A stretch of 61,460 nucleotides of DNA from Solobacterium sp. (lineage in GTDB: Bacteria > Bacillota_I > Bacilli_A > Erysipelotrichales > Erysipelotrichaceae), in assembly GCA_017469885.1 (NCBI GenBank), contig JAFUFO010000012.1:1-61460 (forward strand), in the 5' to 3' direction. The notes under the pieces are model-generated. The model made no database searches. It saw only the letters and a list, made by a program, of their open reading frames with translations, and was not told where the DNA came from. Below are positions 19,237 through 20,057 of the stretch, in pieces. Every line of letters starts with the position of its first letter. Position 1 is the stretch's first letter. Both the position numbers and the translations under genes were made by a program.

Positions 19237-19584
19237 TGCCCTGATCGAACACAAAGACGAAAAGAGGCTCCGAGTGATATAACACGGTGCCGATATTACT
19301 GGTCTTTCTTCGTTTTCCCGGTCTTACTCGCCGTACTTTTCTTTCAGCATCTGCAGGAAGATACGCGGTGTGCGGGTTCTTTTCTGTTTTACGCGTGGAT
19401 GGCACAATCCTGGTTCGTATCAGTTCATGGAGTGAGAATTCCCGGCCAGGCCGGAAGAAATCAGTTTCACAGAACTTTCACTGACCGGCGTAAGAATCAT
19501 GGAAAAAAGCGTGGACACGGAACCGTGCCTGCGTATGTAAGGTGGTGCACCGGAAAAAGGGTGCCGGAAAAAGGAGAAAAACCG
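19237..19584. other. Intergenic region upstream of the small-peptide pair
   Basis: About 350 bp with no well-supported gene. A TATAAC box near 19278 could start the peptide transcript. On the minus strand, a frame ending in IFLQMLKEKYGE and a stop (around 19340) looks like a gene's C terminus but has no start, and may be a decayed remnant. On the plus strand, a frame with a hydrophobic stretch (WSFFVFPVLLAVLFF) lacks a ribosome site. Confidence 0.4.
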
Positions 19585-19752
19585 ATGCTGAAGAATCAGA
19601 TGAAGCTTGATGAAGAACTCCTCGAGAATATCTGGGGCGGAAGACCAGGGTCCGTGTACGAATTTACATCCAGGAAGATCGAGGGCATGTTTATCGACGG
19701 AAAGAATCAGCCGGGCGGAAATGAAGATATTCTGAAGCCGACTCACAGCTGA
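19585..19752 (+). CDS. Small peptide with double-glycine leader, paralogue 1
   Basis: 55 residues, missed by most size cut-offs. The N-terminal part LDEELLENIWGG fits the double-glycine leader used by class II bacteriocins and quorum peptides: Leu at -12, Leu at -7, Ile at -4 and Gly-Gly at -2/-1 (residues 18-19). Cleavage would release a 36-residue, Cys-free, charged core ending GKNQPGGNEDILKPTHS. AAAGGAGAA lies 9 bp before the ATG. Peptide 2, 131 bp downstream, shares the leader pattern and the GKxQPGGNE(D/E)I motif. No C39 peptidase exporter or immunity gene is adjacent. Function is unknown: secreted signal, bacteriocin-like peptide or another modified peptide. Confidence 0.72.
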   Translation: MLKNQMKLDEELLENIWGGRPGSVYEFTSRKIEGMFIDGKNQPGGNEDILKPTHS

Positions 19753-19837
19753 GCATTCGCTCATAGAGAAACAAAAAGATTTCACATTAAAGCAGCACAG
19801 AATACGTGGATGGAAACAGCATCCTTCGTAAATTAGA

Positions 19838-19863
19838 TATCCTGAACGAAATGATTCAGGATA
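19838..19863 (+). promoter_or_regulatory. 9-bp inverted repeat before the second peptide
   Basis: TATCCTGAA (19838-19846) and TTCAGGATA (19855-19863) are a perfect inverted repeat with an 8-bp loop, ending a few bases before the ribosome site of the peptide at 19884. It could be an operator, or an RNA hairpin limiting translation or processing the mRNA. There is no T-run, so it is not a terminator. Confidence 0.55.
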
Positions 19864-19883
19864 AAGAAAAGAGGTATTACATT

Positions 19884-20057
19884 ATGAAAAACTTCGAAAA
19901 ACTGAGTGATTCCATACTCTCTGATATCTGGGGCGGAAATGGAGCACGGCCCCCGAAACTTGCTTATATCGAACTTCCGGATCCCAAAGGCCACGGAAAA
20001 ACGCAGCCCGGCGGAAATGAAGAAATCTTTGACCGCAGGACAAACATGCCCTGGTAA
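19884..20057 (+). CDS. Small peptide with double-glycine leader, paralogue 2
   Basis: 57 residues. The leader MKNFEKLSDSILSDIWGG matches the classical pattern: L-12, S-11, L-7, I-4, W-3, G-2, G-1. The predicted core of 39 residues begins NGARPPKLAYIELPDPK and contains GKTQPGGNEEI, aligned with peptide 1's GKNQPGGNEDI. It has no Cys, few hydrophobic stretches and a C-terminal Trp. GAGG lies about 9 bp before the ATG; the frame is open upstream to 19806 without a ribosome site. Two paralogues conserved at both the leader and one core motif but diverged between them suggest selection on both parts. Confidence 0.75.
   Translation: MKNFEKLSDSILSDIWGGNGARPPKLAYIELPDPKGHGKTQPGGNEEIFDRRTNMPW

Follow-up and report, generated by a model that had tools for sequence, protein, structure and literature searches.

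Two short open reading frames of a Solobacterium sp. contig, ORF1 and ORF2, encode peptides with double-glycine (GG) leaders at a site where no C39 peptidase gene was found beside them. The locus raises the question of what such peptides are, how they would leave the cell, and what would control them. The DNA analyzed here, referred to as the window, is the whole stretch of 61,460 nucleotides; other contigs of the same genome, 70 genomes of the genus, and 316 genomes of the order were used for comparison.

Paired Genes for Double-Glycine Peptides

The following features were assigned to the pair, all on the + strand:

19585..19752, + strand, ORF1, GG-leader peptide of 55 aa (ORF listing and family searches)
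19585..19641, + strand, double-glycine leader of ORF1, MLKNQMKLDEELLENIWGG, with predicted cleavage after GG (GG invariant in the family alignment)
19699..19734, + strand, C-terminal family motif of ORF1, GKNQPGGNEDIL (motif search and alignment)
19884..20057, + strand, ORF2, GG-leader peptide of 57 aa (ORF listing; orthologue with 95% identity at the corresponding locus of genome G049)
19884..19937, + strand, double-glycine leader of ORF2, MKNFEKLSDSILSDIWGG (family alignment)
19995..20030, + strand, C-terminal family motif of ORF2, GKTQPGGNEEIF (motif search and alignment)

In the ORF1 precursor the leader is followed by the core RPGSVYEFTSRKIEGMFIDGKNQPGGNEDILKPTHS, and in the ORF2 precursor by the core NGARPPKLAYIELPDPKGHGKTQPGGNEEIFDRRTNMPW. 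Both proteins match L-x4-L-x2-IWGG and GKxQPGGNE(D/E)I, and neither contains Cys. Their tails read GKxQPGGNE(D/E)I(L/F), and the stretches between leader and tail are unrelated. Shine-Dalgarno sites are AAGGAG for ORF1 and AGAGG for ORF2. An earlier note on this DNA had described a pair of 55 and 57 codons with a shared leader, a shared core motif, and ribosome sites, all of which was confirmed in the sequence. It had also placed the pair between glycerol metabolism and phospholipid genes, and glp genes and pgsA/plsY do adjoin it (by-eye reading of ORF translations). No C39 peptidase, kinase, or immunity gene was found beside the pair in the ORF listings, as the note had said.

The pattern GKxQPGGNE has just two matches in the 2.66 Mb genome, ORF1 and ORF2, and the reversed control pattern has none. 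Between the G000 and G049 orthologues, dN/dS is 0.09 for ORF1 and 0.105 for ORF2; for five ortholog pairs pooled, pS is 0.194 and pN is 0.047. Judged by these substitutions, both reading frames are under purifying selection. A chance match was rejected on the basis of the motif count against the reversed control together with this selection. Searches of the two proteins against family models gave no matches in NCBIfam and one sub-threshold match in Pfam, and the KNxPGGNEDIF-type motif was matched by no model of either collection.

A Peptide Family in Six Genomes

Relatives were gathered by protein search and then by profile searches. In total, 29 full-length members were found in 6 of the 70 genomes of the genus, which comprises rumen Solobacterium-like Erysipelotrichaceae. 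The family-bearing genomes are G000, G001, G009, G021, G028, and G049, which include MAGs named Solobacterium that were obtained from cattle duodenum and from reindeer. The family is closed by a gap in score, from E 6e-6 for the last full-length member to 2e-4 for a sequence that matches mainly in the leader, and the profile search of the 316 genomes of the order found no full-length members outside the genus. The short probe GK[ND]xxG[GDE]N alone recovers true members plus many unrelated proteins. The earlier note had staked its proposal on homologues with both motifs in other genomes; these are present in five further genomes, so the proposal stands on this point.

A ribosome site is recognizable in all 29 members, and each of them has a GG leader. 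The GG (in an alignment of 18 sequences) and a Lys of the leader are invariant, and the hydrophobic positions of the leader in the same 18 sequences are those of known GG leaders. Near the C-terminus, all members carry a motif of the K[ND]xxGxNx(1-2)[IV][FL] type. Several members have H, D, E, K, or N where QPGGNE has its second Gly, whereas the K, G, and N of the motif are kept. The suggestion that this second Gly-Gly is another processing point was consequently dropped, since a position so variable is not a general cleavage site. Core length ranges from 18 to 56 aa; the smallest member has an 18-aa core, ATQGKNTGGDNPIFRPKK, with little beyond the motif. In ortholog pairs showing differences, dN/dS ranges from 0.09 to 0.56.

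Members stand alone or in pairs between other genes, many of them by housekeeping genes. Their neighbors, read by eye from translations, include glp/pgsA, infC, gltX, rpoA, serC, and a glutamine synthetase-like gene; the glp/pgsA locus is kept in G049 with a pair and in G001 with one gene. No member has an exporter beside it, and one member of G028 lies about 8 kb from the exporter named B below. Where loci were read from ORF listings, no modifying enzyme, kinase-regulator pair, or immunity gene was recognized beside members. The idea of microviridin-like crosslinking, based on K...E/D spacing, was rejected; no ATP-grasp enzyme was recognized nearby. The earlier note had proposed a new signaling or modified-peptide family. 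The comparisons support a new, uncharacterized family of GG-leader peptides and a signaling role is possible, but neither a modifying enzyme nor a cognate kinase was recognized beside the members.

The family might constitute an antimicrobial, bacteriocin-like arsenal, in which GG leaders serve NHLM export and the conserved C-terminus is a target-docking motif. A GG leader together with a C39 exporter, the many diverged paralogues per genome, and an NHLM exporter family named for bacteriocins are in keeping with this. When 18 members were compared with bacteriocin models (TIGR01847, PF10439), some leaders gave weak, leader-only matches and one equaled the TIGR01847 cut-off (15.7 of 15.7), but no curated cut-off was clearly exceeded. 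The 29 cores are hydrophilic and on average uncharged (mean GRAVY -0.75, mean charge 0.03), with variation among individual cores; the earlier note's view that the Cys-free cores differ from class II bacteriocins is borne out. Neutral hydrophilic cores and the lack of a recognized immunity gene by any member argue against ordinary class II bacteriocins, and the loci are single and next to housekeeping genes. We regard an antimicrobial arsenal as rather unlikely.

Alternatively, the peptides could be pheromones, the exported motif feeding back via a membrane receptor, possibly SpoIIE-type PP2C phosphatases. The minimal core of only 18 aa would suit this, as would the SpoIIE-domain protein whose gene immediately follows the gltX-locus member in three genomes (with the domain tested in a single one of them) and exporter B in G028. 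However, for most members neither a receptor nor a kinase is adjacent, six paralogues with a common motif in one genome are unusual for pheromones, and the SpoIIE-adjacent members are those with no promoter of the kind described below. We regard pheromones as an unlikely reading. The SpoIIE-type PP2C phosphatases observed are at L056 (11871-13652), L176 (1193-2974), L178 (4590-6377), and L195 (11834-13552).

A Shared Two-Block Promoter

A feature overlooked in the earlier note, as was the sigma-exporter operon described below, is a promoter shared by the scattered members. Three sites were found in the window:

19509..19539, + strand, ECF-type promoter of ORF1, TGGA at 19512, N16, CGTA at 19532 (PWM 23.5, best in the whole window)
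19804..19834, + strand, ECF-type promoter of ORF2, TGGA at 19807, N16, CGTA at 19827 (PWM 21.8, second best in the window)
19393..19423, + strand, additional, weaker site that resembles a promoter, upstream of ORF1, GCGTGGATGGCACAATCCTGGTTCGTATCAG (PWM 17.1, third in the window)

The two top-scoring sites on either strand of the window are thus those assigned to ORF1 and ORF2. The weaker site is shared with the G049 orthologue, the strict motif standing at -189/-190 (G000, G049). Two-block promoters with a CGTA -10 element are typical of ECF sigma factors.

In an unsupervised dyad count, TGGA-N16-CGTA was found in 11 of 22 upstream regions of non-redundant members, whereas in shuffles the best dyad reached 4-5. 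A strong site was defined as a score of at least 15, the 99th percentile of controls being 11.0. Such sites precede 22 of the 29 members; of 592 long control ORFs only 2 have one, and a GG-leader protein is the product of one of these two. Among non-redundant members not used for the matrix, 5 of 10 pass, compared with the same 2/592 controls (p = 8e-9). Most sites are 50-80 bp upstream of the start, and two are near -140. The seven members with no strong site include one that stands second in a pair, the three gltX-locus genes, and others.

Promoter and leader might instead be remnants of copied gene cassettes, with no live regulon. The paralogues clearly arose by duplication; nevertheless, the TGGA and CGTA blocks are kept among sites whose 16-bp spacers and flanking sequences show no relationship, and this promoter also stands before GG-leader genes with cores of unrelated kinds (zinc ribbons, repeats) and before a few non-GG genes. 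Such remnants are a highly improbable explanation.

A Sigma Factor Gene in an Exporter Operon

The earlier note had advised looking for a C39 exporter elsewhere in the genome, and two exporters with C39 domains were found. The first, exporter A, lies on contig C49 and has an intact C39 triad of Cys, His, and Asp. It scores above the TIGR03796 cut-off, and its C39 domain matches the solved PCAT protease 6mpz with E 3e-72. Its partners are an ABC2-like protein, just under the cut-off of its model, and a short HlyD-like protein. The operon also encodes an ECF sigma factor of 178 aa (L013 8650-9186) that has regions 2 and 4 only, with matches to Sigma70_r2, Sigma70_r4, and TIGR02937 over cut-off. 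The sigma gene immediately precedes exporter A, has the same orientation, and overlaps the HlyD-like gene.

Sigma orthologues at least 70% identical were found in 8 genomes of the genus, the next matches being at most 35% identical. In 7 of these 8 genomes, the sigma gene is about 1-1.5 kb from the exporter C39 domain; in G260 the two are on different contigs. All six family-bearing genomes are within the eight sigma-bearing ones (p = 2e-7, kinship ignored), and the two sigma-bearing genomes with no peptide family are G032 and G260. Autoregulation of the sigma factor or the exporters via the promoter motif was considered and rejected, as no site was found before them; for the sigma operon, five genomes were checked.

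Exporter B is a second NHLM-type exporter, located at L014 7923-10181 (contig C17) and, in further genomes, at L194-L201, nine genomes in all. In its C39 domain the catalytic Cys is replaced by Asn and, in most cases, His by Tyr, so that it probably lacks peptidase activity. In the genome of the window, the gene for its ABC2 partner is broken into two ORFs. Exporter B might secrete the substrates with no cleavage or with cleavage elsewhere, and its distribution fits this: each of the six family-bearing genomes has it, and only three further genomes of the genus do. Against it, a dead C39 domain cannot cut GG leaders, the exporter is not linked to the sigma gene, and no such promoter precedes it. 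It was also found in G010 and G044, both with neither sigma nor family, which weakens it as the main route. We consider this route quite unlikely.

Promoter Sites Across the Genus

The pattern GTGGA-N16-CGTAYRW was counted in the 70 genomes of the genus, many of them incomplete assemblies. In the seven sigma-bearing genomes first known, sites outnumber control matches 65:1, versus 76:68 in the other 63. With G260 added, the ratios are 68:1 in 8 sigma-bearing genomes and 73:68 in 62 others (p = 4e-14), part of this enrichment being expected because family members of some of these genomes supplied the pattern. Since the genomes are related, counts of presence and absence are not independent; the within-genome test of the pattern is less exposed to relatedness than they are.

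A more independent test than pattern enrichment is provided by the downstream ORFs. With family loci excluded, a GG-leader ORF comes next after 23 of 40 pattern-only sites in sigma-bearing genomes and after 0 of 23 elsewhere; this is an automatic count adjusted by eye (one transmembrane protein out, one GG peptide in), with loci of sigma-bearing genomes shifted from a mixed group to the sigma-bearing group. The targets are GG-leader proteins with unrelated cores (zinc ribbons, repeats, and helical proteins), plus a few non-GG genes, so that the window pair would be a single branch of a wider regulon of GG-leader genes. At the level of sequence, a shared two-block promoter that tracks the sigma gene across genomes, as expected of an ECF sigma regulon, was found.

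Several further loci were observed. In G032, the sigma-bearing genome noted above as having no PGGNE family, ORFs with GG leaders and cores of tandem repeats (VCSGTRLIDGNDMG; ADQANCGxLILRDCQG-type) stand behind the promoter pattern (L305, L262). In G009 and G021 the same pattern precedes a gene for a multi-pass membrane protein, M[ED]FNRAELKAQAKELVKKN..., with no GG leader (L281 and L293), for which an immunity or accessory function is possible. A separate family of the same genus forms a four-gene array in G010 (L188 5679-6889); its GG-leader peptides have similar SREER-type leaders, and most of the cores end in a Cys-containing tail.

Proposed Regulon and Its Significance

The most probable explanation, in which we place reasonable though not high confidence, is an ECF-sigma regulon of scattered GG-leader peptides that are exported in trans by the sigma factor's own exporter and in which the C-terminal motif is the working part. 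The ECF sigma factor of the contig C49 operon would steer RNA polymerase to GTGGA-N16-CGTA before the scattered genes; that this sigma reads this promoter is inferred. Exporter A, of the NHLM type with intact C39, would cut the leader after GG, as predicted, and export the cores in trans. Secretion of the family peptides, predicted from the leader and the apparently co-regulated exporter, is well supported. Outside the cell, K[ND]xxGxNx(1-2)[IV][FL] would be the working part and the preceding stretch a variable spacer. Conservation of the tail, together with a dispensable spacer, suggests a recognized ligand, and the motif may tentatively be viewed as a ligand for a common surface or secreted partner, a proposal that is plausible though short of probable.

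An open-access literature search, most subscription papers being outside its scope, found no paper on this system. Orphan GG-leader peptides of gut and rumen Firmicutes have nothing informative beside them and so are easily left as hypothetical proteins. Taken together, a dedicated sigma factor, a promoter recognizable in the sequence, and an exporter linked to the sigma gene offer a route to listing a genome's whole exported repertoire.

Wider Occurrence and Candidate Anti-Sigma Factors

More distant sigma homologues were found in G003 and in four genomes of a second genus, g22, about 4.3-4.6 kb from an NHLM-type exporter C39 domain on the same contig. GG genes of these genomes often have TTGCC-N17-CGTATA. 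This pattern occurs 34 times versus 4 for the control in six sigma-bearing g22 genomes (hand-summed, and selected after the table had been seen). No such sites were found in three others, so the extension to a second genus is suggestive only. If the g22 promoters belong to the same system, this would be a family-wide mode of controlling peptide secretion.

In nine sigma loci of the G003/g22 type, a small protein with GG and a charged tail at its end is encoded beside the sigma gene. Small LFDYQ[RK]F...GG proteins beside the ECF sigma of NHLM loci were observed at L322, L323, L324, L325, L327, L329, L331, L338, and L339; those tested had no significant NCBIfam match. They are candidate anti-sigma factors with an export motif. 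Two types of inhibitor candidate were seen, LFDYQRF...LSFAAGGK in other Erysipelotrichaceae and ADFSRET...GG here. Conceivably, though improbably, such a neighbor with its GG export signal inhibits the sigma factor and is removed by the active exporter, a FlgM-like, export-coupled switch for the peptide secretome; the basis of this reading is confined to conserved adjacency and the GG motif. If it holds, substrates would be made only while the export machine works.

Comparison with Known Systems

Class II bacteriocins and other double-glycine peptides (TIGR01847, PF10439) resemble the present family in their GG leaders, mostly of 15-23 residues, and in having a C39 exporter in the genome. Here, in contrast, exporter and peptide genes are unlinked, no immunity gene was recognized, and the hydrophilic, near-neutral cores bear a conserved C-terminal motif of the KNxPGGNEDIF type.

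Clostridial sigma factors of the TcdR/UviA type drive toxin and bacteriocin genes and are likewise alternative sigma factors for secreted products in Firmicutes, but they belong to another sigma group and the products use another export route. To our knowledge, no dispersed GG-peptide regulon is known for them. The primary papers on these factors are cited in PMC8103513.

In actinomycetes, lantibiotics are under the control of ECF sigma factors (MibX/MibW, PspX; review PMC6001450). These systems are similar in that an ECF sigma factor is dedicated to a ribosomal peptide system. There the sigma factor serves a single gene cluster, and MibX is paired with a membrane anti-sigma; here the targets are scattered, the cores are diverse, and no anti-sigma is recognizable.

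A close parallel in export is NHLM/NHLP (TIGR03794, TIGR03796, TIGR03797), which exporter A resembles with its ABC2-like partner and HlyD-like protein. For NHLM/NHLP, too, precursors encoded away from export genes have been described (Haft et al., 2010; PMC2887384). In the present system, no modification enzyme was seen, the precursors are short GG peptides rather than nitrile-hydratase or Nif11 leaders, and the operon includes an ECF sigma factor.
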